Assembly (NCBI GenBank): GCA_013327885.1
Contig: JABUMY010000011.1
Location: 1 to 64,000 of the forward strand
DNA length: 64,000 nucleotides
From: Flavisolibacter longurius
GTDB taxonomy: Bacteria; Bacteroidota; Bacteroidia; Chitinophagales; Chitinophagaceae
Direction: 5' to 3'
Positions 1,439-63,648 of the stretch are shown in pieces. Numbering within the stretch: the stretch's first letter is position 1; each line of letters opens with the position of its first letter. The translations under genes and the position numbers were made by a program. Below the pieces are notes generated by a model. The model saw only the letters and a list, made by a program, of their open reading frames with translations. It searched no databases and had not been told where the DNA came from.

Positions 1439-2335
1439 ATGTGGGAAGACGTGCTTCGCTATTTTGAAACCCTTGAGCAGCGGCCGGTAGAGCGGATGGC
1501 TTTTATTGTGGGCGGCCTGCTTTTCTTCTGGATACTGGAAGGTGCCATTCCCCTGCTGGAACCGAAATACAAACAGACCAAGACCCGCCATGCAATGGTC
1601 AACTTTTATTTTACCGCCATTCACCTGGTAATTCAAACCGGCATCGCCGTGCTGATTGTGCTCTTAGCAGATTGGTGCCAAAAGGCCGATTTTGGCCTGG
1701 CGCAATGGATGGATTTGGGTGTGGTAGGAACGATCATCCTTGCCTTTTTTGTGTATGATTTTTTTATTGGCTGGCTGGCCCATTTTGTCGAGCACAAATC
1801 GTTTACGCTGTGGCGATTTCATATTGTGCATCATGCCGACAATAACGTAGATGCTACTACGGGCCTGCGACATCACCCGGTGGAAAGCATCATTCGCGGA
1901 TCATTCTTTTTGTTGGCAACGTTGGTGGCCGGTGCGCCTATTTATACCCTGATGATTTATCAAACCTTTCTTGTGTTTTTTACGGCCTTCACGCATGCCA
2001 ACATCAGTCTGCCAGCAAAGCTCGACAAGACTCTTTCTTATTTTTTTATTTCGCCCAACATGCACAAAGTGCATCACCATTGGGTGCAACCCTATACCGA
2101 CAGCAACTACGGCGCCGTACTTTCCATCTGGGACCGCTTGTTTGGCACCTATCGTCAACTGGCCCCTTTGGAGATCCGGTACGGGCTTGACCGCTATTAC
2201 CCCAACGAGCAGGACGAAAACTTCTGGCAACTGCTAAAAAGTCCATTCTTAGTACGTCAAACGTCAGACGGGAAATGTGAAACGGAAGACACTACAAAGG
2301 AGGGCCAGCCTTCCCGGCCAAAAGCCTCTGTTTGA
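1439..2335 (+). CDS. Sterol desaturase / fatty acid hydroxylase superfamily membrane protein
   Basis: This is a predicted integral-membrane di-iron oxygenase of the fatty acid hydroxylase superfamily, which hydroxylates or desaturates lipid substrates using histidine-coordinated iron. The histidine clusters typical of the family are visible: HFVEH, HIVHH, a following HHPVE, and HKVHHH further on. Several hydrophobic segments lie between them. The frame is open further upstream, but the ATG at 1439 (MWEDVLRYFE) is the best start because the upstream codons come from the repeat region. The protein is 298 residues long. Its last 27 or so residues (VRQTSDGKCET onward) are encoded by a word-type repeat and look non-native. 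The substrate cannot be told from sequence. Confidence 0.85.
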   Translation: MWEDVLRYFETLEQRPVERMAFIVGGLLFFWILEGAIPLLEPKYKQTKTRHAMVNFYFTAIHLVIQTGIAVLIVLLADWCQKADFGLAQWMDLGVVGTIILAFFVYDFFIGWLAHFVEHKSFTLWRFHIVHHADNNVDATTGLRHHPVESIIRGSFFLLATLVAGAPIYTLMIYQTFLVFFTAFTHANISLPAKLDKTLSYFFISPNMHKVHHHWVQPYTDSNYGAVLSIWDRLFGTYRQLAPLEIRYGLDRYYPNEQDENFWQLLKSPFLVRQTSDGKCETEDTTKEGQPSRPKASV

Positions 2336-2360
2336 CGTTTCCCGTTTCCCGTTTGTCGTT
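2255..2360. repeat. Self-complementary word element, family A (copy 1)
   Basis: The left arm (2255-2288) is built of variants of CGTCAAACG/CAGACGGGAAA. The right arm (2331-2360) carries the complementary words TTTGACGTTTCCCGTTTCCCG. The two arms can pair imperfectly over about 25 bases. The element encodes the C-terminal tail of the desaturase and reaches to within 16 bases of the kdsB start. Related copies lie at 19789-19940 and 31848-31885. Confidence 0.7.
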
Positions 2361-2375
2361 CCTTATTTTCGTTGC

Positions 2376-3092
2376 ATGAAAAGCATTGCACTTATTCCCG
2401 CCCGTTATGCCGCTACGCGTTTTCCTGCCAAGCTGATGCAGGAGCTCAAAGGCAAAACGGTGATCCGGCACACTTATGATGCAACGGTGTCAACCGGTTT
2501 GTTTGACGAAGTGATCGTAGCTACCGACAGCGAAATTATTTTCAACGAGATCACCGCAAACGGCGGCAAAGCCGTAATGACAACCGGGAACCACGAAAGT
2601 GGCACCGACCGCATTGCCGAAGCAGCGCAGGGGCTGGACGCCGATGTCATCGTAAACGTGCAGGGCGATACGCCGTTTGTAAAAAGGGAGCCGCTGGAAA
2701 AACTGTTGCAGCAATTTGAAGATTCATCGGTTCATGTTGGGTCGCTCATGCAGGTGTTGGAAGACGAAGCCCTCATTGCCGATCCCAACTACGTAAAAGT
2801 TTGTGTTGATAAAAAAGGGAATGCACTTTTTTTCAGTCGCAGCGTGATTCCTTTCCCCCGGAACAAGGCCATTCCGATCACGTATTACGAACACATCGGC
2901 GTGTATGCATTCCGTAAACAGGCCCTGATCAATTTTACCACCTGGCCCGTATCGCCGCTGGAAGATGCGGAAAAAGTAGAATGTCTTCGTTACCTCGAAA
3001 ACGGTGTTCCGATTCGCATGGTAATAACTGATTTTATGGGCGTGGAGATCGATACGCCGGAAGATTTGGAAAGGGCGGAAAATTTGATGTGA
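2376..3092 (+). CDS. kdsB: 3-deoxy-manno-octulosonate cytidylyltransferase (CMP-Kdo synthetase)
   Basis: This cytosolic enzyme activates Kdo with CTP to give CMP-Kdo for lipid A inner-core assembly. The family signature is clear: MKSIALIPARYAATRFPAK at the N-terminus (nucleotide-binding loop), VNVQGDTPF around residue 98, and the closing GVEIDTPEDLERAENL. At 238 residues it is close to the usual 240-260. The ATG at 2376 is chosen because the conserved protein begins exactly there and the 33 upstream codons come from a repeat. TATTTTCG at 2364-2371 resembles a -7 box and would give an almost leaderless message. It points to a Gram-negative organism that makes LPS. Confidence 0.95.
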   Translation: MKSIALIPARYAATRFPAKLMQELKGKTVIRHTYDATVSTGLFDEVIVATDSEIIFNEITANGGKAVMTTGNHESGTDRIAEAAQGLDADVIVNVQGDTPFVKREPLEKLLQQFEDSSVHVGSLMQVLEDEALIADPNYVKVCVDKKGNALFFSRSVIPFPRNKAIPITYYEHIGVYAFRKQALINFTTWPVSPLEDAEKVECLRYLENGVPIRMVITDFMGVEIDTPEDLERAENLM

Positions 3093-3129
3093 TAGTTGTA
3101 TTTTACCAATTAAATAGAATGTGGTTGAT

Positions 3130-3342
3130 ATGGCAAGTCCATTAAAATACATTGTTGACGACAACGGCCGGCGTACATCTGTGTTGGTGCCCATCAAGCA
3201 ATGGGAAGAACTGAATGCAGAATACAGCCGAATGCAGCAAAAGCTCGCCATCTTACAGGGCATTGCTACTGGTCTTCAGGAAGTGTCTGAAGCCAAAAAG
3301 AGCGGTGAGAAATTACAAACGCTGAAAGATTTTTTAAAGTGA
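3130..3342 (+). CDS. Antitoxin-like small protein of a type II toxin-antitoxin pair
   Basis: This 70-residue protein starts MASPLKYIVDDNGRR and has the SVLVPIKQWEEL motif typical of Phd/prevent-host-death-like antitoxins, followed by a charged helical C-terminal half expected to wrap the toxin. A GTG at 3121 in the same frame is an alternative start. Its TGA overlaps the GTG of the next gene by four bases (GTGA), implying translational coupling. Antitoxin function is inferred from motif, size and gene order. Autoregulation by the antitoxin would be usual, but no operator was identified. Confidence 0.65.
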   Translation: MASPLKYIVDDNGRRTSVLVPIKQWEELNAEYSRMQQKLAILQGIATGLQEVSEAKKSGEKLQTLKDFLK

Positions 3343-3698: not shown

Positions 3699-3713
3699 TA
3701 AAACAAACTCGCG

Positions 3714-5376: not shown

Positions 5377-5913
5377 ATGGTTTATATGCAAAACAGGTTG
5401 TCGGTCATCAGGGGTGATATCACCAAAGTGGAGGTGGATGCCATTGTCAATGCAGCCAATTCATCGCTGCTGGGCGGTGGTGGTGTGGATGGTGCCATTC
5501 ACCGCGCCGGTGGTCCGGCTATTTTAGAAGAATGCCGAAAGATCGTGGCGAGGCAAGGTGGTTGCCAAACCGGCAAAGCTGTGATAACAACCGCGGGCCG
5601 GTTGCCTGCAAAATTTGTGATTCATACGGTTGGCCCGGTGTGGCATGGCGGCAAGAAGAATGAAAGAGAATTGCTGGCCAACTGTTACCAAAATTCGTTG
5701 CAACTGGCGGTTAATAATGGTTGCCGGTCCATTGCTTTTCCCAATATCAGTACAGGAGTATATGGGTATCCGAAACCGGAAGCGGCAGCGGTGGCCGTGC
5801 AGGCTGTACATGATTTTTTAAATGGGAACAAGGTTTTGGAGAAGGTGATATTTGTTTGTTTTGATGAGGAGAATTTTCGGTTGGTGGAAGGTGAGTTGGT
5901 GAGGTGGGGCTGA
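5377..5913 (+). CDS. Macrodomain protein, O-acetyl-ADP-ribose deacetylase type
   Basis: This is a single macrodomain of 178 residues. The ligand-binding signature is complete: [20 protein letters not shown] followed by [14 protein letters not shown], then [14 protein letters not shown] and [12 protein letters not shown]. Family members hydrolyse O-acetyl-ADP-ribose or remove mono-ADP-ribose from proteins or nucleic acids. An ATG three codons downstream (5386) is an alternative start. It sits after the HerA-like gene and a word-type repeat, so it may be cotranscribed. The substrate is not decidable from sequence alone. Confidence 0.93.
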
Positions 5914-6773
5914 GTTGTAGATTGTATTAGGATTGGTCTTACATTTCGTTAGTTTGTTTTCCACCTTTTCTCTCCCGAAAAGGTGGAGCCAAAAGTTCAA
6001 GGAAAAAGCAAACGCTCCGCTGCTTTTTCCGGGCCAACACACAAGGGCCATTCTTTATTGGTTGCAATATTCATTTTGTATGCAGTTCTTCTTTTCAACT
6101 TTCATTTTCACTTCACGTTGCTTGATACAAATGCATTCATCGGCCTATAAGGCAAGAAACTGCAATCGCTGTATTGCGCTATCCATTCTTTACAGCAAGA
6201 AGAAGTGTTAGGCCATGCGCAATAAGGCGCTGAACCAGTGAGATCAGGGAAATGGAAGGAGCTGCTGTTTTCTTATTTGAGATTTGATCATTGATAATTG
6301 TCTATTGAATATTATTCCTGCCTTCATTTGAACTGTTGACTGGTTTTCATTTTTCCTTCATCCAACTCCTCTTGCTAAAACAACTATCCCCTCCTTGGAG
6401 GGGCGACCTAACGTTTGTCATTTCCGTAAAGACTTGGGGTGGGTTTACGCAGCCCAATCTATGCCCTGTCCCTTCGGGGAAAACTGGTGCAACGCCAATA
6501 AACGGAAAACCCCTCCGGGGTTGTTTATTATCATTGCATTTGTTCACCGGGTTTCACCCGGCGCTATTCACAGGGAAGCCCGAAGGGCTTTGGAGAGAGA
6601 ATGAAATAATGACAAGTATTTCGTATGCATAAACAAAAAGCCGCCGCCAGAAAAACTGTCAGAGCTAAAAACATATCGTGCAAAAGCGTGGCGTTCTGCG
6701 TTGGCTGTTCCTTCCGCATTAGGCGGAGAGGTTAGATGGGCTTCTCCACCGGAGGGACCCAGGGGCCGTCCTC
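5914..6773. other. 860-base gene-free region made largely of repeats
   Basis: No open frame here looks coding. The region holds a perfect 10-base hairpin at 5961-5986 (CCACCTTTTC/GAAAAGGTGG), a second palindrome at 6388-6403 (CCCCTCC/GGAGGGG), G/C-rich repeat debris around 6470-6530, and copy 2 of the composite repeat at 6537-6765. It separates the plus-strand macrodomain gene from the minus-strand DUF3078 gene (convergent). Confidence 0.7.
6537..6765 (-). repeat. Composite intergenic repeat, copy 2 (inverted relative to copy 1)
   Basis: The order is TTCACCGGGTTTCACCCGGC (6541 on), then AAACAAAAAGCCGCCGCCAG with TATCGTGCAAAAGCG (6631-6687), then GCGTTGGCTGTTCC and a GGAGAGGTTAGATGGG block (6698-6740). 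Each part matches the reverse complement of the corresponding part of 1012-1232 in the same order, so this is a long diverged inverted repeat. Confidence 0.75.
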
Positions 6774-7697
6774 CTAAAACTTCAACTGCAGCCCTGCTCC
6801 AATCAATGATTTTATCTGCATGGCCGGGGATTTTCCTTCTTTGCCAAAAATGCGTACATCATCATCGTAAATAATATCGAGGTTCCAGCTTGCTGATAAA
6901 AACTTTGAAACTTTTACCGAGACCACATTGGTCATGAAGATGTCGATGTTCTGCGGATTGTGCCGGTAGTTTGAGAAAAGGTCAAGCCGGCCACGGTATT
7001 GCAGGTTGGGTGTAAAATCCTTGATATAATTGGCGCTGGCAAACGCACCAAATTCGGCATTCACATGCCGGCCCGAATCCACGCCATAGGCGCTTTTTGC
7101 CGACAGCGAATCATTCTTAACAATCACCAAACGACTGGTGATGGGCGAAATAAAGAATGAAAAGCTAGGACTTGGTTTGTAATCCAAACCGATACTGGAG
7201 AGCAGGTAGGCCGGTGATAAAAAAGAGGACGCAAATGTTTTTACATTATCCGGGTACGTATAGCCCCGTGCCAGTTGCGAACGAAAGTTGCCGAGCACAG
7301 AAAGGTTCCAAACAGAATCCAGCGCATAGCCGTACTTGGAAAGAACATCCAGGCGGTCATCGTTCTTGCGGCTTCCGAGGCTGGTGGTGTTCACATAACC
7401 AAAGTTGAAATCAAGCGTATTGTCCCAACTGTGCTTTCCTTTTTTATAGAACGAATACAGGTTGAGGTAAGAGGTTAGCGTCAGGGAAAAATCATCGCCG
7501 CCGGCGGCCCAGTTGCTCAGCGACCCTTGCGCCAGGTTTAAGTTGTAAATGCCGCCCCTGCGCCAGGCAAGGGTATCAGGGCCTTCCTTTTTGATTTGTT
7601 TGCTGGCTTCTTCGCGAAGCTGCTTTACCGTTTTGTCCTGTGCAGAAAGCGATAAAAAAAACAAACTCCAGCAAAGGGTGAAAATTGTTTTTAGCAT
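6774..7697 (-). CDS. DUF3078 outer-membrane barrel protein
   Basis: This is a 307-residue exported protein with a signal peptide (MLKTIFTLCWSLFFLSLSAQ). After it comes the DUF3078-type start LAWRRGGIYNLNLAQGSLSNWAAGG and alternating strand-rich sequence with aromatic residues, ending IGAGLQLKF, as outer-membrane barrels do. The family is found in Bacteroidota and its function is not known. It ends convergent with the macrodomain gene. murI lies upstream on the same strand with 31 bases between, so the two are likely cotranscribed. Confidence 0.8.
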   Translation of the reverse strand: MLKTIFTLCWSLFFLSLSAQDKTVKQLREEASKQIKKEGPDTLAWRRGGIYNLNLAQGSLSNWAAGGDDFSLTLTSYLNLYSFYKKGKHSWDNTLDFNFGYVNTTSLGSRKNDDRLDVLSKYGYALDSVWNLSVLGNFRSQLARGYTYPDNVKTFASSFLSPAYLLSSIGLDYKPSPSFSFFISPITSRLVIVKNDSLSAKSAYGVDSGRHVNAEFGAFASANYIKDFTPNLQYRGRLDLFSNYRHNPQNIDIFMTNVVSVKVSKFLSASWNLDIIYDDDVRIFGKEGKSPAMQIKSLIGAGLQLKF

Positions 7698-7728: not shown

Positions 7729-8550
7729 CTACAAATCTACATGTCTTCCCACAACAGGTTGCCCAAAGAAAAGGGAGGCTTTGCTGGTAAAATCTTCTGC
7801 GGAATCGGTTGTGTAAAAATGGCGTTGCGCCTGCCGTGAAATTTTCGTTTTAATTTCAGGATGGCGTTCCAGGTAATCCTGCAGGCTATGTGCTACGATC
7901 TCTCCTTGCGAAAGCAACTGAACACCAGAGGGCAGTTGTGCTTCAATTTTTTCTTTCAGTAAAGGATAATGCGTGCAAGCTAACAGCAGCGTGTCTATGT
8001 CTTTGTCTTTGGATAAAATCTGTCGGATATGCTTCTGTACAAAATAGTCAGCGCCTTCGCTCTGGTGTTCGTTGTTTTCCACCAGCGGTACCCACATCGG
8101 GCAGGCCTCCTGTGTGATCTTGAGCCCGGGAAAAAACTTTTCAATCTCGATGGCATAAGAATCTGATTGCACCGTGCCGTTGGTAGCCAGGATGCCGATG
8201 TGGTTTGTGCTTGTTTTTTTCCCGATGATCTCCGTGGTAGGACGAATCACGCCCAGTACTCTTGCCGTTGGATGCAAGCGCTGTAAGTCGTTCTGCTGGA
8301 TACTGCGCAGGGCCTTTGCCGATGCCGTATTGCAGGCAAGAACAATGAGCGGACAGTTTTGTTGTAAAAGCCACTCCACGCACTGGAGGGTATAGCGGTA
8401 AACGGTTTCAAAGCTGCGGGTTCCGTAGGGTGCCCGGGCATTGTCGCCGAGGTAGAGATAATCGTATTGTGGCAGGGCGGTTACAATTTCACGCAGCACG
8501 GTAAGACCGCCATAGCCCGAGTCAAAAACGCCGATGGGACAGAAGTTCAA
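7729..8550 (-). CDS. murI: Glutamate racemase
   Basis: This enzyme converts L- to D-glutamate for peptidoglycan. The diagnostic motifs are present: IGVFDSGYGGLTVLREI at the N-terminus, the first catalytic cysteine in VLACNTASA and the second in LLACTHYPLL. The protein is 273 residues long. In this frame the only usable start after the upstream stop (TGA at 8554-8556) is TTG at 8550, giving MNFCPIGVF. That TTG lies within a word-type repeat (AAAGTTC words at 8544-8579), so a repeat appears to supply the start codon. It is followed by the DUF3078 gene. Confidence 0.93.
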   Translation of the reverse strand: MNFCPIGVFDSGYGGLTVLREIVTALPQYDYLYLGDNARAPYGTRSFETVYRYTLQCVEWLLQQNCPLIVLACNTASAKALRSIQQNDLQRLHPTARVLGVIRPTTEIIGKKTSTNHIGILATNGTVQSDSYAIEIEKFFPGLKITQEACPMWVPLVENNEHQSEGADYFVQKHIRQILSKDKDIDTLLLACTHYPLLKEKIEAQLPSGVQLLSQGEIVAHSLQDYLERHPEIKTKISRQAQRHFYTTDSAEDFTSKASLFFGQPVVGRHVDL

Positions 8551-8579
8551 AGTTCACAGTTTAACGTTCAAAGTTATTG
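8544..8579. repeat. Word element, family I (AGTTCAAAGTTCACAG type)
   Basis: It consists of tandem variants of GTTCAAAGTT, and the murI TTG start codon lies inside it. It shows little internal complementarity compared with the other families. It lies in the divergent space between murI and the AraC-type gene, next to the family C element. Confidence 0.5.
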
Positions 8580-8588
8580 CCCAATCTG

Positions 8589-8656
8589 TGTTTATGGTTT
8601 ACAAATGCATTTTAGAATTTACACAACTGTAAACTGTAAACAGTAAACGGTTAACT
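8589..8656. repeat. Self-complementary word element, family C (copy 1)
   Basis: GTTTATGGTTTAC (from 8590) faces the complementary words GTAAACTGTAAACAGTAAAC (8629-8648). A second family C copy is at 26893-26962. It fills the 5' region of the AraC-type gene, and TAACTTTA at 8652-8659 overlaps its end and resembles a -7 box. Confidence 0.6.
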
Positions 8657-8663
8657 TTAATTC

Positions 8664-9503
8664 GTGCAGCATGTGGAGTTTTTTCATAAGGACCATTTTC
8701 AGTACCGGTACTATCGCCAAAAAGCAAAGCGGCCGCTTTCGCAGTTCATCGATTTTTTTTGGGAAACCGATTTTGATGACTTGTTCCGGCGCTACCCCAA
8801 TGGTTTTTCCGATGCCTTGTTCCCGAACGTAGGCTATACTTATCTTATCAACCTGGGCACACCGTTCGTGATGCAACTGGAAGAGGAGAAATTTGAAGTG
8901 AAGGGTGATGGCTTTTTACCACGGTATAAAAACATGATCTGTCATCACTCAACCGGCAACAGGATCTTTGGTATTAAGTTCAAAGTATCGCCTGTGGTTT
9001 TTCAGAAAAAGATCAATTTTTTGGAGTACCGCGAATACATTTTTCCGCTGGCTTACCTTATTGATCGCAACGTAGTGGAAAAGGTAAAAGCAGCCGCTTC
9101 CTTCGGGCAGCGGGTGCAGCTACTTAGCGCTTATTATGAAGACATTCTCCGGCAACACGCCGGCTCCTTACACCATGTGAATATCGTTACCGAAATTTTG
9201 CAGGATTGCGTGGAGACAAATGCTTTTGATCGGTCCATTGAAGATCTTTCCATCCGATACAAGATCAGTACCCGCACCCTGCAGCGTTATTTCGAAGCCA
9301 CTACCAGTATCACCAGCAAGCAAGCCTTGCAAATCCTTCGCATTCGCAAAGCCGTGGAAAAGCTGGCCAATGCACCGGGTGATTTTCACTACACGCAGTT
9401 TGGTTATTACGACTACAGCCATTTTCACAAACACCTGAAACAATTTCTTTGCAGCCACACGATTTCTATACTGCAGCCACACCTGAAGCTGCTGCAAAGG
9501 TGA
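8664..9503 (+). CDS. AraC-family transcriptional regulator
   Basis: This is a 279-residue regulator. The N-terminal two thirds resemble the DUF6597-type sensor domain of Bacteroidota AraC proteins (YRQKAKRPLSQFIDFFWE, then GYTYLINLGTPF). The C-terminal helix-turn-helix includes ISTRTLQRYFEATT and FGYYDYSHFHKHLKQFL, the second matching the usual GYxDxSHFxRxFK signature. There is no ATG: GTG at 8664 or 8673 must be used. The TGA stop (9501-9503) is part of a GTGAGTGGTGAG word element. Its targets are unknown. The neighbouring TonB receptor is convergent and not an obvious target. Confidence 0.85.
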   Translation: MQHVEFFHKDHFQYRYYRQKAKRPLSQFIDFFWETDFDDLFRRYPNGFSDALFPNVGYTYLINLGTPFVMQLEEEKFEVKGDGFLPRYKNMICHHSTGNRIFGIKFKVSPVVFQKKINFLEYREYIFPLAYLIDRNVVEKVKAAASFGQRVQLLSAYYEDILRQHAGSLHHVNIVTEILQDCVETNAFDRSIEDLSIRYKISTRTLQRYFEATTSITSKQALQILRIRKAVEKLANAPGDFHYTQFGYYDYSHFHKHLKQFLCSHTISILQPHLKLLQR

Positions 9504-9556
9504 GTGGTGAGTAAAGAGCTACCTGCACTCACCACTGACCATTCACCACTCACGAT
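9499..9556. repeat. Self-complementary word element, family B (copy 1)
   Basis: GTGAGTGGTGAGT at 9502-9514 faces ACTCACCACTGACCATTCAC and CACTCAC up to 9554, and the arms can pair. It lies between convergent genes (AraC-type on plus, TonB receptor on minus), supplies the AraC stop codon, and ends next to the receptor stop. It could act as a two-way terminator, though it has no T tract. Confidence 0.7.
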
Positions 9557-19205: not shown

Positions 19206-19790
19206 ATGGAGTACAATGTAGAAGAGATCAATAAGTTGATTCGAAGCCGTCGGTCTGTTTTCCCGAAACAATACGCCGAGGGACAGCCCGTAGATGACGC
19301 CATCGTGAACAAGATTTTGGAGAACGCTACCTGGGCGCCCAGCCATGGCAACCTGGAGCCGTGGAAATTTATCGTGTTTACCGGTGAAGGCCTGCAAAAG
19401 CTTGCCACGTTCCAAGCGGAATTGTATAAAAAAGAAGCCGGCGATAATTTTAAAGAAACCGTTTACCAAAATTTGCAGGCCAACCCGCTGCGGGCTTCGC
19501 ATGTGATTGCGCTTTGCCTAAAGCGTGACCCCAATAAAAAGTTCCCAGAGCAGGAAGAAATTGCAGCCGTGGCCTGTGCCGCACAGAACATGTACCTTAC
19601 CACCACCGCTTATGGCTTGGGTGGTTACTGGACTACCGGCGGCCCTACCTATAAAGCCAGCGCCAAAGAATTTTTCGGTTTGGGTGAAAACGATAAGCTG
19701 ATGGGCTTTTTTTACGTGGCCCATGTTGCCGTTCCTTCGCCGGACAGCAAACGAAAGCCGCTGGAAGAAAAAGTAGAGTGGGTGAGGTGA
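19206..19790 (+). CDS. Nitroreductase-family FMN oxidoreductase
   Basis: This is a 194-residue flavoprotein of the YdjA-like nitroreductase group. The motifs seen are RRSVFPKQY near the N-terminus (FMN phosphate contact), NATWAPSHGNLEPWKFIV, and AACAAQNMYLTTTAYGLGGYW. Such enzymes reduce nitro- or quinone-type compounds with NAD(P)H, and the physiological substrate is usually unknown. The ATG at 19206 fits the family start. It is convergent with the DUF1003 gene, with a family A word element between them. Confidence 0.92.
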   Translation: MEYNVEEINKLIRSRRSVFPKQYAEGQPVDDAIVNKILENATWAPSHGNLEPWKFIVFTGEGLQKLATFQAELYKKEAGDNFKETVYQNLQANPLRASHVIALCLKRDPNKKFPEQEEIAAVACAAQNMYLTTTAYGLGGYWTTGGPTYKASAKEFFGLGENDKLMGFFYVAHVAVPSPDSKRKPLEEKVEWVR

Positions 19791-19940
19791 CGGAAGACGT
19801 AAAACGGCAGACGTGAAAGAAGAGAGCGTTTACAAGTTCACACGTTGAAAGCCCAGACAAACTATTGTCAAAACTGACTGAATTCTAAGTGACGCTACAG
19901 TCTCACGTTTGTCGTTTCACGTCTGACGTCCTCACGTTTT
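19789..19940. repeat. Self-complementary word element, family A (copy 2)
   Basis: The left arm GACGGAAGACGTAAAACGG with GCAGACGTGAAAG (19789-19820) faces CTCACGTTTGTCGTTTCACG with TCTGACGTCC (19902-19930). It sits between convergent genes and encodes the last residues and stop of the DUF1003 protein. Confidence 0.7.
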
Positions 19941-25008: not shown

Positions 25009-25854
25009 TTAATCAACCGTCGGGCATTTGTAAGACTGCAGGTTCAGGCTGATGGTGAACATGGCAGTTACAAACTGGTCTTTGTTCTGGCTGTTGCCCC
25101 GCTGGAGGTCTTTGCCGCCAATGCGGGTGCCCGTTTCGTAAGAGCGGTCCTGCAGCAGGAAGGCTATCGATGGCGTACCATCAGGGTTGGCCGGGAAGGC
25201 TGCCGGGTCGGCGTAGGTGCGGCTCACATCATCCAGGTAATCCGTGCCGGTGAAGCGGTAAAGCACTTCAAAGCCAAGGTTAATGCGTTCGTTCAGGGCA
25301 TATTTCAGTCCAACGCCCAGCGGAATGGCCAGCGCCATGGTGCCGTATTGCTTGCGGTCGGGGTAAAGCGTACTGCCTTGCCCTTCGGTACCCAATTGGC
25401 GCAGGTTGTATTTTTCATCTTTCAGGTAAGCATAAGGGTCGTAGCTGAAAGCACTCACACCCAGGGTAACATAAGGCGTAAACCGGAAATCAGGATCGCC
25501 GGGCATAAAGCGGTAAAAATTAAAATCACCCTGCAGCGCCAGTTCCCACACATTGGTATTGAAGCTCAGGTTACGCCGGCGCATGGATTCGTTATGCGTG
25601 TTGTACACATCTGAATACCCCAGTTGGGCAAAGTTGCCGGCAAGACGCAGGGCTATGTAGTTGCCAAAGTTTTTGCGGAAAAACAAACCAGCCGCCAGTT
25701 TTGGGCGGTTCAGCTTTGCTCTTGTATTCAAATCACCAAAATAATGACCCGCACCCAGGCCAAAGCCAAATTCTCCCTCCTGCACAATACTGTTTTGGGA
25801 TAACAAGGTCAGCGGCAGGCTAAGGCATAAAGCAGCAAAAAATTTCTTCATCAC
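25009..25854 (-). CDS. DUF6089 outer-membrane protein
   Basis: This 281-residue exported barrel-like protein has signal peptide KKFFAALCLSLPLTLLS, then the family start EGEFGFGLGAGHYFGDLNT, FFRKNFGNYIALRLAGNF and FRFTPYVTLGVSAFSYDPYA. Family members occur beside isoprenyl transferase, NAD kinase and POTRA-barrel genes in Bacteroidota, as here. The function is unknown but envelope-related by context. A piece of the gene (about residues 123-155) is duplicated as a pseudogene fragment at 46763-46866. Confidence 0.85.
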   Translation of the reverse strand: MMKKFFAALCLSLPLTLLSQNSIVQEGEFGFGLGAGHYFGDLNTRAKLNRPKLAAGLFFRKNFGNYIALRLAGNFAQLGYSDVYNTHNESMRRRNLSFNTNVWELALQGDFNFYRFMPGDPDFRFTPYVTLGVSAFSYDPYAYLKDEKYNLRQLGTEGQGSTLYPDRKQYGTMALAIPLGVGLKYALNERINLGFEVLYRFTGTDYLDDVSRTYADPAAFPANPDGTPSIAFLLQDRSYETGTRIGGKDLQRGNSQNKDQFVTAMFTISLNLQSYKCPTVD

Positions 25855-26892: not shown

Positions 26893-26962
26893 TTTCCCGT
26901 TTACTGTTTGCAGTTTACCGTTTACGGTGTTTAACAACTGTAAACAGTAAACGGTAAACTAT
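26893..26962. repeat. Self-complementary word element, family C (copy 2)
   Basis: GTTTACTGTTTGCAGTTTAC and CGTTTACGGTG face CTGTAAACAGTAAACGGTAAAC. The element fills the 82-base space between the stop of the POTRA-barrel gene and the NAD kinase start almost exactly. Confidence 0.7.
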
Positions 26963-26969
26963 CAACGTT

Positions 26970-30838: not shown

Positions 30839-30911
30839 GAGAAGTAGGCAGCAGGCAGTAGGCAGTAAGCAGTCCGGCTCCAATTGCCTACTGCGTACTG
30901 CTTACTGCCTA
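30839..30911. repeat. Self-complementary word element, family D
   Basis: AGTAGGCAGCAGGCAGTAGG with CAGTAAGCAG faces TTGCCTACTGCGTACTGC with TTACTGCCTACT. The arms pair over about 30 bases with a few mismatches. The element fills the 79 bases between the YqeY stop and the CvpA start. Confidence 0.75.
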
Positions 30912-30914
30912 CTC

Positions 30915-31367: not shown

Positions 31368-31378
31368 ATAGAAAAGGT

Positions 31379-31463
31379 TTGTAGTGGGTAGTTTGTGGTT
31401 TGTAGTTATGTGTGCAGGCCTCCCTTATCCTTATCCTCAGCCTCAGCCTCAACCTCAGGCTTA
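31379..31463. repeat. Word element, family G
   Basis: GTAGTGGGTAGTTTGTGG and TTTGTAGTTATG words (31379-31409) are followed by CTTATCCTTATCCTCAGCC and repeated CTCAGCC words (31427-31460). It lies between gldC and yqeY, and the gldC stop codon (minus strand TAA, next to TGAGG words) is inside it. There is little pairing between its two halves. Confidence 0.55.
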
Positions 31464-31811
31464 GCCTGCCTTGTTCTCTTTCATCTGCTCTTCCTGGAAC
31501 TTCTGGTAGAACTGCTGTGCAAAGGCTTTCATTTCATCGGTCAATGCCGTCATGCGGGTGGCCCGCTGAAAGGTATCGGCCATCGTCATCATGGTCTGGT
31601 AATAAAAATCAGCCATTTCGTCCACCATCATTTTCTGTGTCCACAGGTCAATGCGCAGGGCCGCTTTGTCGGCACCGTCCCAAAGCGAAAGCATAAACGC
31701 TTTTGCCTGTTGTGGTCTTTCAATGGTACTGTCGGTAGCCGACCACTCGATAGCGGATGGCACTTTCTGCTCATCCAGCTCTACATCTATTTTTATCGTT
31801 GATTTTGCCAT
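31461..31811 (-). CDS. gldC: Gliding motility / type IX secretion protein GldC
   Basis: This is a 116-residue cytosolic protein. The family-specific stretches are AKSTIKIDVELDEQKVP, AFMLSLWDGADKAALRIDLW and VDEMADFYYQTMMTMADTF. GldC is found in Bacteroidota with gliding motility and the type IX secretion system, and is thought to stabilise the GldB component. The ATG at 31811 matches the family start. Upstream, CGAAGATA at 31829-31836 (minus TATCTTCG) may be a -7 box. Its presence agrees with the T9SS-tailed protein at 14617. Confidence 0.9.
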   Translation of the reverse strand: MAKSTIKIDVELDEQKVPSAIEWSATDSTIERPQQAKAFMLSLWDGADKAALRIDLWTQKMMVDEMADFYYQTMMTMADTFQRATRMTALTDEMKAFAQQFYQKFQEEQMKENKAG

Positions 31812-31847
31812 GTGTTGCTTTTTCGCCGCGAAGATAGGCAGGGACAA

Positions 31848-31885
31848 CGTGAGACGTGAGACGGGAAACGACAAACGTGAAACTG
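31848..31885. repeat. Word element, family A (copy 3, half)
   Basis: GACAACGTGAGACGTGAGACG with GGAAACGACAAACGTGAAAC shows the family A words on one arm. A convincing complementary arm was not found. It lies upstream of gldC and downstream of the glycosyltransferase stop. Confidence 0.55.
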
Positions 31886-33107: not shown

Positions 33108-33394
33108 GTTGCGGAAACGTTGGGTGCTGCGAAAGAGCAAAAGACCGCCGCCGGCAAACCACCCGGTTGTTTAACGAATCGAATTGGGTAAAAAATTTCT
33201 TTCCACAACCGCTTGTGTTGTTATTCTTCAACAATTTTTTGTGGAAACATGATCCGCATCCGCTCACTTTACGCTGAAAAATTCTTTGGTATGACGTTTG
33301 TTTCAAACCTCTACGAACGCGAATGCTTCACCCTTAATCTTACAAAACGTAGTATAAACGACCTCTTAGGTGGAAGAGGATGGTGGCTTGTAAA

Positions 33395-33426
33395 AGGGGC
33401 CTTGGTTCGGGGCCCCTTTCTTTTTT
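33395..33426 (+). terminator. Orphan terminator-like hairpin
   Basis: AAAGGGGCC and GGCCCCTTT arms with a short loop (TTGGTTCGG), followed by CTTTTTTTT on the plus strand. No recognised gene lies upstream on the plus strand for more than 30 kb of mostly minus-strand genes except the open stretch at 33250. Confidence 0.6.
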
Positions 33427-33429
33427 TTC

Positions 33430-33706
33430 GGCCCCCTGTCCCCCGGTGGGGGAACTTAGGTCCATTTAGCTTTTCTTTTTCAGTCCGTTGTTTAGCAATG
33501 TCTTTTCCAATAACAAATGCCTGTCGTAAAAACAGGCATTTTTCTTTTTATGTACTTAGCAGAATTACTACTATGAGGCATTCGTTGCGTCGCACACTTT
33601 TGCGTTCGGTAATCCTATTCAGCAGAAAAAAACATTTTACAGTAGGAAATGATAGATGATCAAAGGAAATACGGACCTAAGTTCCCCCACCGGGGGACAG
33701 GGGGCC
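33430..33706. mobile_element. MITE-like element 2 with 34-bp perfect terminal inverted repeats
   Basis: The ends 33430-33463 and 33673-33706 are perfect reverse complements and share the same 32-base core as element 1. The interior of about 210 bases contains a hairpin and the motif GTTGCGTCGCACACTTTTGC followed by GTTCGGTAAT. The right end provides the last codons and stop of the epimerase. No transposase is encoded. Confidence 0.75.
33525..33550 (+). terminator. Terminator-like hairpin inside MITE-like element 2
   Basis: AAATGCCTGT and ACAGGCATTT arms with a short loop, followed by TTTCTTTTTATG on the plus strand. It lies in the interior of the element and has no plus-strand gene in front of it. 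Confidence 0.5.
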
Positions 33707-34816
33707 CTTCCAGCTATTCTCTTCCTTCAAATAACTTTCATCAATCACTGCTCCCAAACCGGGAACTTCCGGTACGTCAATCACACCGTTTTCTAAATAG
33801 CGGATACCACCGATCACCGGGTCTTCGGTGTACATCAGCGGCGTATCAAAATCGCAGTGGTAAATATGGCTGTTGCTCAGGGCCAGGTGGGCCGCAGCGG
33901 TCATCCCTAACCGCGATTCCATAAAGCCGCCTACCTGCATGTGCAGACCGGCCGCTGCGCCCAGTTCGGCGATCTTTTTTCCTTTGTAAAACCCGCCCGA
34001 TTTTCCCAGCTTAATATTGAACATTTGGCAGGCATTCAACTGGATCAATCGCTCCGCATCCCAGTGATCGCCGCAGCTTTCATCGGCCATAATAGGAATG
34101 GGCGATGCCGCTGTTACCTTGCTCAATTCCATAAAGCGGTAGCGGGAAATGGGCTCTTCGCAGTGCTCGATGTTAAACGGTGCCAGGGCCTCCAACACAG
34201 CAATAGCGTTTTCGGCGGTTCCCCAGCCCTGGTTGGCATCAATGCGCAAGGGAAGATCCGGACCAATGCCTTCGCGAATGGCCCGGATCCGCGCCACATC
34301 TTTTTCCAGGCTTTCGCCCAGCTTTACTTTAATAGCGGGAAATCCTGCCGCCTTGAACCGCACCGCATCGGCCTGCATCTTCTGCGGATCGCCAATGCTC
34401 ACGGTCATATCGGTTTCCAATACCTTGGACTTTTCTCCTCCTAAAAATTTGTACAGCGGTACACCCGCATGTTGTGAAGCAATGTCGTAAAGCGCCATGT
34501 CAAAAGCGCTTTTAATGCTGCTGTTGCCGTATATGGTTTTGTCCATGGCCTCCACACAGCCGGCAAGGTCCAGCGCATCTTTTCCCTTCAGCACCTGGGC
34601 AAAATATTGGCCTACCACAAAACAGGTATCAATGCTTTCGCCGTTGATGGTCATGTACGGACTGCTCTCGCCATAACCGGCGCAGCCATCGGCCGTGCGA
34701 ATGATGACCACCAGGTTTTGCACGTTGTGGATGGGACCCAGCGAGATCACGAACGGTTCTTTCAGCGGAATAAAAAGCTTGTACAGCTCAACAGCCTGGA
34801 TAGAGGTTGCTTGCAT
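33677..34816 (-). CDS. Dipeptide-epimerase-like enzyme, enolase superfamily
   Basis: This is a 379-residue member of the mandelate racemase/muconate-lactonising group. Superfamily residues seen: the KxK pair in AIKVKLGES, metal ligands Asp in LRIDANQG, Glu in HCEEPIS and Asp in MADESCGD, and the second base Lys in NIKLGKSGG. The pattern fits L-Ala-D/L-Glu-type epimerases, involved in murein peptide recycling, though the exact substrate is uncertain. The ATG at 34816 is preferred to 34840. The C-terminal GPLSPGGGT and stop come from MITE-like element 2, giving the same tail as UppS. Confidence 0.85.
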   Translation of the reverse strand: MQATSIQAVELYKLFIPLKEPFVISLGPIHNVQNLVVIIRTADGCAGYGESSPYMTINGESIDTCFVVGQYFAQVLKGKDALDLAGCVEAMDKTIYGNSSIKSAFDMALYDIASQHAGVPLYKFLGGEKSKVLETDMTVSIGDPQKMQADAVRFKAAGFPAIKVKLGESLEKDVARIRAIREGIGPDLPLRIDANQGWGTAENAIAVLEALAPFNIEHCEEPISRYRFMELSKVTAASPIPIMADESCGDHWDAERLIQLNACQMFNIKLGKSGGFYKGKKIAELGAAAGLHMQVGGFMESRLGMTAAAHLALSNSHIYHCDFDTPLMYTEDPVIGGIRYLENGVIDVPEVPGLGAVIDESYLKEENSWKGPLSPGGGT

Positions 34817-34852: not shown

Positions 34853-34919
34853 TCGTGAGTGGTGAGTGGTGAATGGTGAGTCAGGCGTAACACAACTCAC
34901 AACTGACCACTCACGATTC
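34853..34919. repeat. Self-complementary word element, family B (copy 2)
   Basis: CGTGAGTGGTGAGTGGTGAA with TGGTGAGTC faces AACTCACAACTGACCACTC with ACGATT. It lies in the divergent space between the epimerase and the 59-residue gene at 35048, an exception to the usual 3'-end placement. Confidence 0.65.
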
Positions 34920-36671: not shown

Positions 36672-37022
36672 ATGAATCCATTGTTCATCGGTGCTTTCTC
36701 GCTTCTTGCTGTGCTGGCGCAAACCTGCGGCAAAAAGGCACAAAACAGCCTACCTTCCTGTGTGCAGGACAGGATTGAGGCCATCAAAAAAGAACCGCAG
36801 TGGAATCCGCCGGCTACAGTAACGGAATACCGCTACGAAGGCCGTACGGTGTACCTGTTCAGCAGCAATTGCTGCGACCAATACAACGAACTTTGGGACC
36901 GCGATTGCAAATACATTTGCGCACCCACCGGCGGCTTTACCGGCAAGGGCGACCAGAAATGCACCGATTTTGAAGAAAAGGCAGAACTGGTGAAAGTGGT
37001 ATGGAAAGACGAAAGAGAATGA
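36672..37022 (+). CDS. Small secreted protein, DUF6970-like
   Basis: This is a 116-residue protein with a hydrophobic leader (MNPLFIGAFSLLAVLAQTC) and a conserved-looking core: EYRYEGRTVYLFSSNCCDQYN, DCKYICAPTGGFTGKGDQKC. The paired cysteines and the CAPTGGFTGKGD block resemble the DUF6970 family from memory. A poor lipobox (LAQTC) makes lipidation uncertain. The TGA stop is inside a GAACAGATGAACAG word element. It is divergent from obgE. Confidence 0.6.
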   Translation: MNPLFIGAFSLLAVLAQTCGKKAQNSLPSCVQDRIEAIKKEPQWNPPATVTEYRYEGRTVYLFSSNCCDQYNELWDRDCKYICAPTGGFTGKGDQKCTDFEEKAELVKVVWKDERE

Positions 37023-37150
37023 ATAGGTGAACAGAAGAACAGATGAACAGGGAACAGATGAATGTTGAAGGAAATTAAAAATTCATCAGTGGAAGTTCGA
37101 TCATAACAACATCGAACATTGAACTTCGAACGACAAACGACGAACAACAA
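37018..37150. repeat. Word element, family E
   Basis: GAATAGGTGAACAGAAGAAC and AGATGAACAGGGAACAGATG words (37018-37067) are followed by CATCGAACATTGAACTTCG and AACGACAAACGACGAACAAC words (37110-37150). It lies between the DUF6970-like gene and the holin-like gene, and only short parts are complementary. Confidence 0.55.
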
Positions 37151-37160
37151 AATAAACAAA

Positions 37161-46587: not shown

Positions 46588-46620
46588 GTCCGAAGTTGAC
46601 AGTTCATAGTTGTTAGTCGA
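46588..46620. repeat. Word element, family H
   Basis: It consists of GAAGTTGACAGTTCATAGTTG words immediately after the K+ channel stop codon. It has no clear complementary arm. It is similar in style to family I but not the same sequence. Confidence 0.4.
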
Positions 46621-46762: not shown

Positions 46763-46866
46763 TCAATTGGCCCAGGTTGTATTTTTCATCCTTCAGGTAA
46801 GCGTAAGGGTCGTAGCTGAAAGCACTCACACCCAAGGTAACATAAAGCGTAATCCTGAACTTAAAA
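46763..46866 (-). pseudogene. Fragment of a DUF6089 gene
   Basis: About 100 bases are nearly identical to 25387-25490 and encode FRITLYVTLGVSAFSYDPYA and LKDEKYNLGQL in frame on the minus strand. The rest of the gene is missing. The identity over the stretch is roughly nine bases in ten, so the duplication is recent or the segment is conserved. Confidence 0.75.
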
Positions 46867-47272: not shown

Positions 47273-47302
47273 TGGTGAATGGCGAGTGGTCAGTGGTGAA
47301 TA
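47270..47302. repeat. Word element, family B (copy 3)
   Basis: TAGTGGTGAATGGCGAGTGG and TCAGTGGTGAATAAAG follow the microprotein frame. A short partially complementary stretch (CTACTCACATCTG) lies at about 47369. Confidence 0.6.
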
Positions 47303-47578
47303 AAGGATCTTTTACAGGAGCAAAAAAGGCTTCTGTGGACACTGCTCTCTATTGGTTTTGTACAGAATAACTACTCACATCTGAATTGCAGAAAAAATGT
47401 TCTGCATTCACTGCCACTTATTACAAAACAATTAGCGTAATCAGTTTGCGAAATATTGGCATTGTAAAACGGTCCTCTTCATTTCATAGAACGACTACCT
47501 ATTTTCTTATCTACAGCAATTAGCAAGGTGTTCATCTGTCTTCTGCAATAAAATGCTTGACACAAAACAGCAACTAAA

Positions 47579-47625
47579 CAATATCGAATATCCAATATCT
47601 CAATATTCTACTATCCCACTATCCT
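47579..47625. repeat. Word element, family F (ATATC words)
   Basis: ACAATATCGAATATCCAATA followed by TCTCAATATTCTACTATCCC and a CACTATCC word form a short degenerate repeat directly downstream of the SDR gene end (minus strand). Confidence 0.5.
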
Positions 47626-52321: not shown

Positions 52322-52426
52322 AGGCCAACTACTTGCTGCTGGCTACTGGCTACTCGCTGCCCCTTGGCACCATTTTCGTTTTTATTCCTGCGGAAAACAA
52401 ATTCCGTAACAATAAAAACAACAGGT

Positions 52427-55837: not shown

Positions 55838-55865
55838 GCCTTAAAAATAAGGTATAGCGAGCAGA

Positions 55866-56000
55866 ATCGTGAATGGTGAGTGGTCAGTGGTGAGTAGGGA
55901 GGCTTTAAAGCACACCCTGTGTTTACTTTGGTTAAGGCCTGTTACATCCTAAAAAAACTATCCACCATCACTACTCACCATTCACCATTCACCACTCACT
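55866..56000. repeat. Self-complementary word element, family B (copy 4, large)
   Basis: TCGTGAATGGTGAGTGGTC with AGTGGTGAGTAGG (55866-55899) faces CACTACTCACCATTCACCATT with CACCACTCACT (55967-56000). It fills the space between the DUF1624 gene stop and the amidohydrolase start. Confidence 0.7.
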
Positions 56001-61541: not shown

Positions 61542-61552
61542 AACAGATAACA

Positions 61553-62113
61553 ATGCCGATACGTGGATGGTTTCTTTGCCTGTGGTGCCTGTTAGCCTTT
61601 GCAACCACGCAGGCCCAGAGCCGGTATTTTACCAAAACAGGGCGCATCAGTTTTACGTCGCATGCGCCGCTGGAAGACATTGAAGCCGTGAACAAAACGG
61701 CCAGTGCCGTGCTGGATGCCAAAACCGGTCAGCTGCAATTTGCCGTGTTGATGAAAGGCTTTGAATTTAAAAAAGCGCTGATGCAGGAGCACTTTAATGA
61801 GAACTACGTGGAGTCGCACAAATACCCCAAGGCCGAATTCAGGGGAACCATCGTCAATAATACGGACGTGAATTATGCAAAAGATGGTAGGTATGCGGCC
61901 AGGGCCCGCGGACAACTGTCGCTGCATGGCGTTAGCCGCGACATCGACGTGCCGGCAACCCTGCAGGTGCAGGGTGGAAAGGTGGAGGGCAAGGCCACCT
62001 TCCCTGTACGGGTGGCGGACTATAACATCACCATTCCTTCGCTGGTGAAAGACAAGATCAGCAACACGGTAAACGTAACGGTGCAGGTGCGGTTAGAGCC
62101 GCTTGCCAACTAA
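61553..62113 (+). CDS. YceI-family periplasmic protein
   Basis: This is a 186-residue protein with a signal peptide (WFLCLWCLLAFATTQAQ) and the YceI beta-barrel pattern: YFTKTGRISFTSHAPLEDIE, SHKYPKAEFRGTIV and ARGQLSLHGVSRDIDVPATL. YceI proteins bind polyisoprenoid lipids in a hydrophobic pocket. It follows the OB-fold gene by 11 bases. The fourth gene is 19 bases further on. Confidence 0.9.
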   Translation: MPIRGWFLCLWCLLAFATTQAQSRYFTKTGRISFTSHAPLEDIEAVNKTASAVLDAKTGQLQFAVLMKGFEFKKALMQEHFNENYVESHKYPKAEFRGTIVNNTDVNYAKDGRYAARARGQLSLHGVSRDIDVPATLQVQGGKVEGKATFPVRVADYNITIPSLVKDKISNTVNVTVQVRLEPLAN

Positions 62114-62132
62114 CGGAACTAAACAAACGTAA

Positions 62133-63014
62133 ATGCGATACAAAGTATTCTACTTTTTGCTCCTGCTGGGTATTTCCGGTAACCTGCCGGCGCAGGACCT
62201 GCTTTCGGGTATGGAAGACAGCACACCTAAAAAAGAGGTGGTCACAGCTGCCTTTAAATCAACACGGGTGATCATGACACACAGCATGGAAATGCTCAAG
62301 CCAGGCGTGCTGGACTTTCGCATCCTGCACCGGTTTGGCAACATCAACCAGGGTATCAAAGAATTTTTTGGAATGGATGATGCCACCATCCGCCTTGGGT
62401 TGGACTATGGCCTTTCCAATAACCTGACCATCGGGCTTGGCCGGGGCAGCTACCGCAAAGAGGTGGACGGCTTTCTTAAGTTCCGGGCGGTGCCGCAAGC
62501 CACAGGACCGGGCGGTTCGCCGGTATCGGTTTTACTGGTGGGCGGCGCTATGGTGCAAACGGCACCTTGGTCGGGCCACAAGGACGATGAAAGTGTTACC
62601 AACCGTATGGCCTACTACACGCAATTGATCCTGGGAAGAAAGTTCAGCGATGCGTTTACGCTTCAGTTGACTCCCACCTGGGTGCACCGCAACCTGGTGG
62701 CCGCTGTGGATAATAACAATACCCTGGCCCTTGGTACCGGTGCAAGGTTTCGGTTGTCACGCCGTGTGTCGCTGAACATAGATCATTATGTTGTGTTCAA
62801 TACCGAAAAAAGTTTTGACACCTATTTTCCACTTTCTGTAGGGTTTGATATTGAAACCGGCGGGCATGTTTTCCAGCTTCATTTTACCAACGCCATTGGC
62901 ATGAACGAAAGAGCTTTTCTTACCGAAACCACCAATCGCTGGGGCAATGGCGATATCCAGTTTGGCTTCAACATTTCGCGGACATTCCAGCTAAAAAAGA
63001 AACGGTTTGAATGA
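62133..63014 (+). CDS. DUF5777 outer-membrane barrel protein
   Basis: This is a 293-residue exported protein with signal FYFLLLLGISGNLPAQ. The family core is TAAFKSTRVIMTHSMEMLKPG and LDFRILHRFGNINQGIKEFFG, and it ends in a strand-rich barrel (GDIQFGFNISRTFQLKKKRFE). It is the last gene of the operon starting at 60706. The function is unknown, but conserved linkage with YceI and a cytochrome suggests a membrane redox or lipid role. Confidence 0.85.
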   Translation: MRYKVFYFLLLLGISGNLPAQDLLSGMEDSTPKKEVVTAAFKSTRVIMTHSMEMLKPGVLDFRILHRFGNINQGIKEFFGMDDATIRLGLDYGLSNNLTIGLGRGSYRKEVDGFLKFRAVPQATGPGGSPVSVLLVGGAMVQTAPWSGHKDDESVTNRMAYYTQLILGRKFSDAFTLQLTPTWVHRNLVAAVDNNNTLALGTGARFRLSRRVSLNIDHYVVFNTEKSFDTYFPLSVGFDIETGGHVFQLHFTNAIGMNERAFLTETTNRWGNGDIQFGFNISRTFQLKKKRFE

Positions 63015-63388
63015 GTGAGTGATTGGACAGGAGAAATGATGTTGCAGGATGTGTTTATTGTTTTCTGCGCAGCTTCTGGTTGAAGTTGCCAGGAGCACAA
63101 CGGACACAAAGGGGGGCACAAAGGCCGGCAAGAAATGTTTCTGCGATAGCCATGGTTCATTTGTAGTTAACAAGAAATGAACTGGCAAATTAAAATGCGT
63201 CAACAATCCAAATTGCAATCATCACTTTACAGCGCACTTAATTGGGCACTTTAGCGTTGCTATTTACACTGTCGTGTTAAGCAAAGTAAAATTGCTTTTC
63301 CTCATCAACGAATGTTCCCTTACGGCTTTCTCGCGGAAATAAAATATGATTCAATCCTCTAAATAAGTTACGCCTTCAACCAAATGGG

Positions 63389-63457
63389 TTCGGCTAAAGC
63401 CGATACAAGGTAGAGTCTAAATTTTCGATAATTCCCCGCGCTAAAGCAGCGGGGCAA
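63389..63457 (-). repeat. Paired-hairpin (REPIN-like) element, copy 2
   Basis: TTCGGCTAAAGCCGATAC at the left and CCCCGCGCTAAAGCAGCGGGG at the right are the reverse complement of the two parts at 46884-46950, with spacing similar but the interior diverged. Confidence 0.65.
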
Positions 63458-63616
63458 TAGAAGAGGAGAGAGTCTATTGTTCGGCAAATAAAAAATGCCT
63501 TGCCAGAGATGTTGCTTCCAGGCAAGACAGTTGTTTTATCAATAAGGAAAAGAAACTGCGTTGTAGTTTTTTAAGTGCCTTGCTTTTCTATTTTGAATAA
63601 CAGACTTAAGATTGCC

Positions 63617-63648
63617 GACTCACCACTCACCATTCACCGCTCACCATC
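63617..63648. repeat. Word element, family B (copy 5)
   Basis: GACTCACCACTCACCATTC with ACCGCTCACCATC, a family B arm, lies immediately after the stop of the last gene of the window (minus strand). A second arm was not seen. Confidence 0.6.

Follow-up and report, generated by a model that had tools for sequence, protein, structure and literature searches.

Several kinds of small repeat are known from the intergenic regions of bacteria. Cyanobacteria carry STRR heptanucleotide repeats, with several heptamer families per genome. REP/BIME and MITE-like elements are small dispersed palindromes near gene ends, present singly or in pairs, and in the REP/RAYT arrangement the same palindromes flank a transposase gene. 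According to the accessible part of PMC4692102, arrays of the Xanthomonas word GGGAATC, (GGGANTN)n, are oriented outward and occur as inverted pairs; the same text mentions three Calothrix heptamers and recounts a polymerase-footprint slippage idea for heptameric repeats. TAACTGA repeats are placed in Beggiatoaceae, cyanobacteria and five Bacteroidetes in the available sections of PMC4679880, and the available sections of PMC12632851 describe DRT10, a single system with 9-nucleotide (nt) repeat units on a protein-primed complementary DNA (cDNA). Here we analyse arrays of 7-nt words in a stretch of Flavisolibacter longurius DNA (the window: 64,000 nt, positions 1 to 64,000 of contig JABUMY010000011.1), in its source genome and in related genomes.

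Among described repeats, the heptamers found between genes in Xanthomonas and cyanobacteria come closest. As in Xanthomonas, the arrays have a period of seven with fixed and free positions, an outward orientation and inverted pairs. However, the accessible Xanthomonas account concerns one quadruplex-forming word, whereas here about a dozen words are interchangeable, octads occur, and both arms can be replaced at the same site; by inspection rather than by a quadruplex scan, GGGTTTG is the only one of our twelve reference words with a three-G run. Like the TAACTGA repeats, they are intergenic heptamer arrays at gene edges in Bacteroidetes, but TAACTGA, in the portion of its description available, is one word that in the main genome stands mostly just before starts and in direct orientation (169 direct sets, one indirect), while the arrays described here often form inverted pairs and tend to lie behind stops. 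The presence of multiple heptamer families per genome is shared with the STRR repeats. Being small dispersed palindromes, with shared centres in some words of Pinibacter, they also resemble REP/BIME and MITE-like elements, from which the heptad-structured arms, the many words and the absence of a transposase tied to the arrays set them apart. DRT10 likewise has short tandem repeats, but, as far as the accessible account goes, as a cDNA product and not as chromosomal arrays. We found no description of multi-word paired heptad arrays in the open-access papers searched; most subscription papers, including a 2007 survey of prokaryotic simple repeats, lay outside this search. New here are the many interchangeable words, the paired replacement and a measured constraint on the core of the words.

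Arrays were called where 76% or more of the positions in a 28-nt stretch matched at the period considered, and were compared with first-order Markov shuffles (a single set, except for the window count with 20 shuffles). Gene calls come from a simple in-house program, for which stops are firm and starts uncertain. The window contains 17 period-7 arrays versus a mean of 0.1 in shuffles; each remaining period from 3 to 13 gave 0 to 4 places, and the multiple 14 gave 20 versus 1.9. In 864 kb of the source genome (G000, 5.75 Mb), there are 120 period-7 places versus 0 in shuffled sequence, together with 21 period-8 places. As controls, Escherichia coli K-12 has 0 arrays in 50 kb and 12 Chitinophagaceae loci preselected as array-poor have 2 in 249 kb, while all 80 Chitinophagaceae loci pooled have 83 versus 5. 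Beyond Flavisolibacter and Pinibacter, the labels array-rich and array-poor are based on approximately 20 kb per genome. The units are contiguous, with a length of 7 and secondarily 8 (octads), twelve reference words cover 163 of 164 arrays, identical words recur at many loci, and 111 of 121 merged elements lie mainly outside called genes. Each word has its own register, in which the same positions vary between neighbouring units and others hardly do (seven words, p 1.5e-6 to 1.5e-38). The same pattern was obtained for ten automatically found Pinibacter words (p 1.5e-2 to 7e-31), and by eye the octads, such as GTTCACNN, resemble the heptads in this respect. An Rfam search returned nothing at gathering score. 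CRISPR was ruled out, in agreement with the original prediction for the window, because the 7-8 nt units are contiguous and have no unique spacers. As a side observation made post hoc, words B, D, GCGAGTA, H and CAATNNG, together with Xanthomonas GGGAATC, fit a loose frame A-R-T-N-G-N-S when read outward.

The arms accumulate behind stop codons. In gaps of 150-600 bp in G000 and in the nearest relative compared (G006, approximately 80-86% DNA identity), 67% of the arms nearest a stop (n = 106) lie within 15 nt of it, at a median of 7 nt, versus 15% under uniform placement. For arms nearest a start (n = 72), the fraction is 23.6% versus 16.5%, and the median 46 versus 48. Placement at gene ends, which the original prediction had proposed together with a check for enrichment near stop codons, was thus found for stops, with starts close to expectation. 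Elements are present in 32 convergent and 65 co-directional gaps, versus 120 and 463 such gene pairs. Arms point outward from genes: within 60 nt of a gene edge, and read outward from it, the arms of a word have one orientation (B 45/47, CAATNNG 40/46, A 24/29, D 13/15, C 17/19, G 15/21); for AGCT, with a core that is its own complement, the count is 6/17.

Arms within a gap match each other. Across 97 two-arm gaps, the left arm is at least 70% identical to the reverse complement of the right in 61%, compared to 8.5% for arms taken across gaps, and 215 gaps of Flavisolibacter and Pinibacter contain 135 inverted versus 22 direct same-word pairs. The inverted same-word share depends on the loop: it is 67% below 25 nt (n = 51), 74% at 25-60 nt (n = 68) and 82% at 60-120 nt (n = 50), and falls to 25% at 120-250 nt (n = 28), 25% at 250-500 nt (n = 12) and 0/6 beyond. 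Inverted same-word pairs make up 31/52 in convergent, 87/130 in co-directional and 17/33 in divergent gaps. Gaps at most 1.5 kb apart share a word in 10.6% of cases versus 4.2% for those more than 30 kb apart (p 0.016); since this is far below the same-gap rate, regional spreading of words was rejected. Decayed mirror arms opposite single arms were rejected as well: the mean match was no different (p 0.39), even if a match of 10 of 12 was reached in 9% versus 1%, and none were seen in mixed-word gaps.

Within the words, change is rarer at the fixed letters than at the adjacent ones. We set core and variable positions from pooled arrays of the compared species, with words chosen by eye (automatically for Pinibacter). 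In 58 G000 arms with the word kept in G006, core positions differ in 116/928 cases (12.5%) and variable positions in 221/764 (28.9%; p 4e-17), with non-array sequence in those gaps differing at 0.236. A neutral simulation passed through the same kept-word filter gives 0.218 for core versus 0.227 for variable positions at 24% change (ratios of 0.94-0.98 over three rates). By word, core versus variable changes are 13/127 versus 38/90 for A, 23/212 versus 78/264 for CAATNNG, 7/149 versus 24/100 for C, 31/234 versus 37/170 for B and 13/66 versus 21/44 for AGCT. The constraint is present both in paired arms (33; 0.101 versus 0.308) and in unpaired arms (20; 48/310 or 0.155 versus 79/282 or 0.280, p 3e-4), the paired ones being somewhat more constrained (p 0.03); the difference in 5 intermediate arms (0.171 versus 0.214) is not significant. 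Two Pinibacter comparisons gave 50/628 (0.080) versus 64/420 (0.152) for 37 arms, with non-array sequence at 0.184, and 50/786 (0.064) versus 77/523 (0.147) for 45 arms, with non-array sequence at 0.155. Given this lower rate of change, the fixed letters probably matter.

Arrays are kept in the same gaps of related species, yet both arms sometimes carry a new word. Among 320 pairs of genes that are neighbours in G000 as well as in G006, 318 were classed, and mostly both species or neither have arrays: both 32, one only 15 and 11, none 147 for co-directional pairs; both 13, one only 7 and 3, none 31 for convergent pairs; and both 5, one only 4 and 1, none 49 for divergent pairs. The gap between yqeY and cvpA illustrates how words are exchanged. 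AGTAGGC stands there in three genomes (that of the window, G009 and G007), whereas both arms are an octad in G006 and the word is CAATNNG in G003 (by eye, under the array cut-off). In a tree of the two neighbouring proteins, these five array genomes form one clade (100/99), with G006 sister to the window (99/95), and word D is likely the older one at this site, with separate replacements towards G006 and G003. The gap is 63-116 nt long in the five array genomes and 0-10 nt in 7 of 9 array-free genomes of the genus, which favours insertion; the gaps of the other two array-free genomes, G012 and G016, are filled by 93 and 268 nt of unrelated sequence, and Paracnuella and Pinibacter have other words.

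When 45 hairpins were compared across species, the word was kept in both arms in 32, changed in both in 7 and changed in one in 6 (Fisher p 1e-4). In Flavisolibacter, arm identity is higher within than between species (0.816 versus 0.716 for 18 hairpins, p 0.006; 0.727 versus 0.659 for all 27 pairs, p 0.009); in Pinibacter alone, the within-species value is not significantly higher (p 0.17, 27 hairpins). The original prediction had called for covariation of the arms and proposed that they evolve by slippage with arm correction. Arms do change together at the level of words, but the order of units is not mirrored between them (mean rank 0.52, 128 pairs, p 0.48), and arm correction by copying was rejected on this ground; a Pinibacter word change in both arms with the loop partly kept is the one exception-like case. 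Compared with a null drawn from the same family, arms show a weak excess of identity (mean rank 0.61, n = 52, p 0.01).

Replaced elements point to how some words move. The first one examined has no donor beyond its arm. In the second (Pinibacter G038, GCGTTAA), the new hairpin is nested in approximately 11 letters of the old right arm, and 51 other places in G038 match parts of the element. The seven best of these, which bring the set to eight elements, are GCGTTAA-word hairpins, most with a related GTGC..GCAC-type centre and with the common outward unit order GCGTTAA GCGTTAG GCATTAA from the centre. Similarly, four AATTAAT-word elements of Pinibacter G040 have, by eye, a common inner GCATTC/GAATGC hairpin. 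Elements with heptad arms around this hairpin include L196:6882-7020 and others on L118, L120 and L113 near 15.1 kb; by eye, a T run sometimes follows the hairpin, and these compound elements may double as terminators. We also counted same-word element pairs whose unit order and loop beat all 10 shuffles, for which 9% is expected: the values are 15.6% in G000 (n = 90), 17.4% in G006 (n = 46), 22.8% in G040 (n = 114), 24.1% in G038 (n = 29) and 44% in G039 (n = 9). Sharing is thus weak in Flavisolibacter, where word B alone has a common order of units (z 4.7). These data suggest that whole elements have spread for some words, in Pinibacter recently, and the Flavisolibacter words may be older.

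The elements of the window are as follows, with fold z values for DNA against shuffles:
2255-2360: word A (ACGTGAG), period 7; left arm approximately 2255-2290 within a called open reading frame ending at 2335, right arm 2330-2360; fold z -2.45; right arm has the same word in G006.
5310 (J): quasi-palindrome without a 7-nt period (p 0.21); fold z -2.28.
6275-6313: array absent from the original list.
8543-8655: divergent gap with a word I (GTTCAAA) arm at 8543-8575, a two-unit word C left arm at approximately 8589-8602 (p 0.37) and a clear word C right arm at 8625-8655.
9499-9553: word B (GGTGAGT), convergent gap; short left arm across the stop codon, right arm 9526-9553; fold z -4.40.
19789-19939: word A, convergent gap; arms 19789-19813 (overlapping the stop codon) and approximately 19900-19939; fold z -2.39.
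26893-26966: word C (GTTTACG); arms 26893-26928 and 26936-26966; fold z -4.94; same word in G006.
30843-30913: word D (AGTAGGC), between yqeY and cvpA; arms 30843-30873 and 30880-30913; fold z -4.58.
31381-31407: word G (GTTTGTA), single arm, kept in G006.
31847-31883: word A, single arm, kept in G006.
34855-34919: word B; arms 34855-34879 and 34891-34919; fold z -5.44.
37020-37151: octad arm 37020-37050 (word E) at the stop codon and heptad arm 37108-37151 (AACATCG), the latter absent from the original list.
46594-46617: word H (AGTTGAC), single arm preceded by a stop at 46583; period-7 match 0.67.
47273-47624: a single arm of word B at 47273-47297 and an arm of word F (CAATATC) at approximately 47579-47624.
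52329-52358: word CTACTGG, single arm past the stop at 52321, absent from the original list; word B there in G006.
55864-55999: word B; arms 55864-55901 and 55968-55999; fold z -4.39; G006 has the same word in both arms.
63618-63645: word B, single arm directly behind the stop of a minus-strand gene at 63653.

The claim of real, structured word elements holds for 15 of the 17 places originally listed, which are heptad or octad arrays with a period-7 or -8 match of 0.62-0.90 (best 3.2% of 3,000 random window sites). The exceptions are C 8589, with only a two-unit left arm (p 0.37), and J 5310, which lacks the period (p 0.21). Words are 7 and sometimes 8 nt long, rather than 6-10. The proposed imperfect hairpins were found as DNA folds better than shuffles in 7 of 8 two-arm heptad elements (z -2.39 to -5.44), but not in element 8541-8660 (z -0.63), and no fold forms in the single arm at 31376-31409. 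In the G006 counterpart of 9499-9553, the right arm is kept and the left arm is the word GCGAGTA.

The window and its genome have other features as well. A period-6 CCTCAG array (31435-31467) adjoins the word G arm. An intergenic segment of approximately 70-100 nt at 33324-33428 is 81-100% identical in 13 listed genomes of the genus and ends in a strong G+C hairpin with a T run; ARAGORN found no tRNA and Rfam gave nothing above chance in it, and we regard it as a candidate small RNA. It adjoins a dispersed repeat of approximately 280 bp (33430-33707) that is present many times in both G000 and G006, with 72-91% identity. Window 5919-6269 belongs to a dispersed repeat of approximately 320 bp that has members in several of the genome's long gaps between genes, and 25393-25488 and 46764-46859 are a 96-bp duplicate with 93% identity. 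Two Y1_Tnp (RAYT-like) genes of G000, at C11:189598-190619 (L010:9598-10619) and C11:327291-328350, are by our reading flanked by REP-type palindromes, which turn up again in further gaps, one of them 5913-6774 of the window.

Periodicity, placement, polarity, loop-dependent word matching, paired replacement, core constraint and the shared centre and order of some Pinibacter words are what we observe, and the account we favour, tentatively and with less than even confidence, is a varied collection of small dispersed palindromes, most of them old, that settled behind stop codons and the core of which would still be read by a putative DNA-binding factor. Each word would be one family, and each element two heptad or octad arms around a short centre, with single arms as well. 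Elements would arrive whole just behind stop codons or inside an older element, the latter appearing as a word change in both arms; afterwards the centre and variable positions would drift and the core would be kept. A spreading enzyme is presumed, and the factor, either a mobiliser or a host protein using gene-boundary sites, would read the core at 7-nt steps and act on DNA, not on transcripts. We place spread as units first because the second replaced element has relatives with the same centre and unit order. When the arms are masked, 6 of 100 array gaps shorter than 300 bp share anything, but this test is blind to short centres, so that the rarity of sharing is not a ground to reject unit spread. 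It nevertheless belongs with the points that weigh against this account. For 117 arms, no partner was detected at the opposite gap edge. CAATNNG, A, AGCT and D in Flavisolibacter have no shared unit order. The constraint is absent in word D (core 19/67, variable 13/43) and weak in word G (10/73 and 10/53), and, against a strong reading of it, for 64 of the 132 G000 arms no counterpart was detected in G006, and arms often stand alone. In one Pinibacter element, TTGAAAA became TTGAGAG in both arms with the loop partly kept, a change that insertion leaves unexplained. We identified no protein that reads the core, and no transposase is tied to the arrays: Y1_Tnp genes are present in 10/10 array-rich genomes and 5/9 others, but those at G000 C11:190003 and 327791 are flanked by other palindromes, of a different class, and not by array words.

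Core constraint that extends to unpaired arms, fixed polarity, arms that change together and an unmirrored unit order would be expected of immobile host boundary elements with interchangeable words, where a core-reading factor holds the arms together and separates neighbouring genes. This is possible, if rather unlikely, given that more than 10 words per genome would require many specificities and that the shared centres and unit order in Pinibacter point to unit spread. If only self-complementarity mattered, as for a pure DNA hairpin or cruciform in which periodic words can pair in any register, one would understand why same-word pairing depends on loop length, why arms change together, why the folds of most two-arm elements in the window surpass those of shuffles and why paired arms are somewhat more constrained; the fixed polarity, the recurrent words, the single arms and the core constraint of unpaired arms are left unexplained, and we consider this quite unlikely. 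Loss of SbcCD was rejected as a cause. For SbcD, a nuclease that acts on hairpins, the C-terminal domain (PF12320) was detected in 1 of 19 Chitinophagaceae genomes (E. coli, Bacillus subtilis and a Bacteroides score), but it is missing from array-poor genomes too, so that its loss would be at most permissive.

An action on transcripts, as terminators, processing sites or 3'-end protectors, had been part of the original prediction, and the position behind stops and the presence of elements in 32/120 convergent and 65/463 co-directional gene pairs would fit it. Intrinsic terminators are indeed fewer in co-directional gaps with arrays (17/122 versus 65/260 without, p 0.016), but they are about equally frequent in convergent gaps with and without arrays (18/38 versus 38/71), which led us to reject terminator substitution. 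The words are not known terminators, as originally noted: they have no G+C hairpin with a T tract, and separate, in some gaps conserved, terminators sit in the same gaps between the arms. Moreover, transition-type arm mismatches in 38 co-directional pairs (39 versus 47) give no G-U asymmetry on the transcribed strand, and the same pairing occurs in divergent gaps (17/33). Selection for RNA hairpins was rejected on the missing asymmetry, leaving this explanation decidedly improbable. Still less probable are neutral heptamer microsatellites made by polymerase slippage and tolerated only outside genes. Heptameric repeats are over-represented in many bacteria according to the accessible part of PMC4692102, 111/121 elements lie outside called genes, and identity at variable positions declines from 0.58 to 0.56 and 0.54 at one, two and three units apart (0.46 between arrays), a gradient seen in CAATNNG, A, AGCT and D and not in B, G and C. 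This gradient is too weak for slippage to be the main maker, and core constraint, inverted pairing, paired word replacement and the pile-up at stop codons argue against it as well. Finally, a telomerase-like reverse transcriptase adding short templated repeats would yield inverted same-word arms with fixed polarity and unmirrored unit order, and a bacterial enzyme making noncoding-RNA-templated tandem repeats exists, DRT10 in the available text of PMC12632851. However, four array-rich genomes (G009, G039, G040 and G041) gave no RVT_1 match, array-poor Sediminibacterium has the domain often (4 and 10 matches), more than 10 words would demand more than 10 templates, and conserved terminators lie between arms, making such an origin extremely improbable.

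A broader idea, which we regard as speculative and unlikely, is word-independent genome punctuation, in which a cellular factor would read geometry (core letters every seven, mirrored over a short gap) and not sequence. If true, many boundaries would carry interchangeable words, a boundary would change its word only in both arms together, and Xanthomonas and cyanobacteria, with their heptamer repeats, would use this system with one word each. Bacteria far apart from each other are on record as having heptamer repeats between genes, with neither function nor origin established, and the study on which we drew most centres, in its accessible part, on quadruplex-forming words. In the genomes described here, many words share one geometry and most do not look like quadruplex formers, the core is constrained in two genera, and replacements are visible at the same sites. 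Because constraint and replacement are both visible, the old questions of why seven, how the repeats spread and what reads them become testable with short oligonucleotides and close strains.

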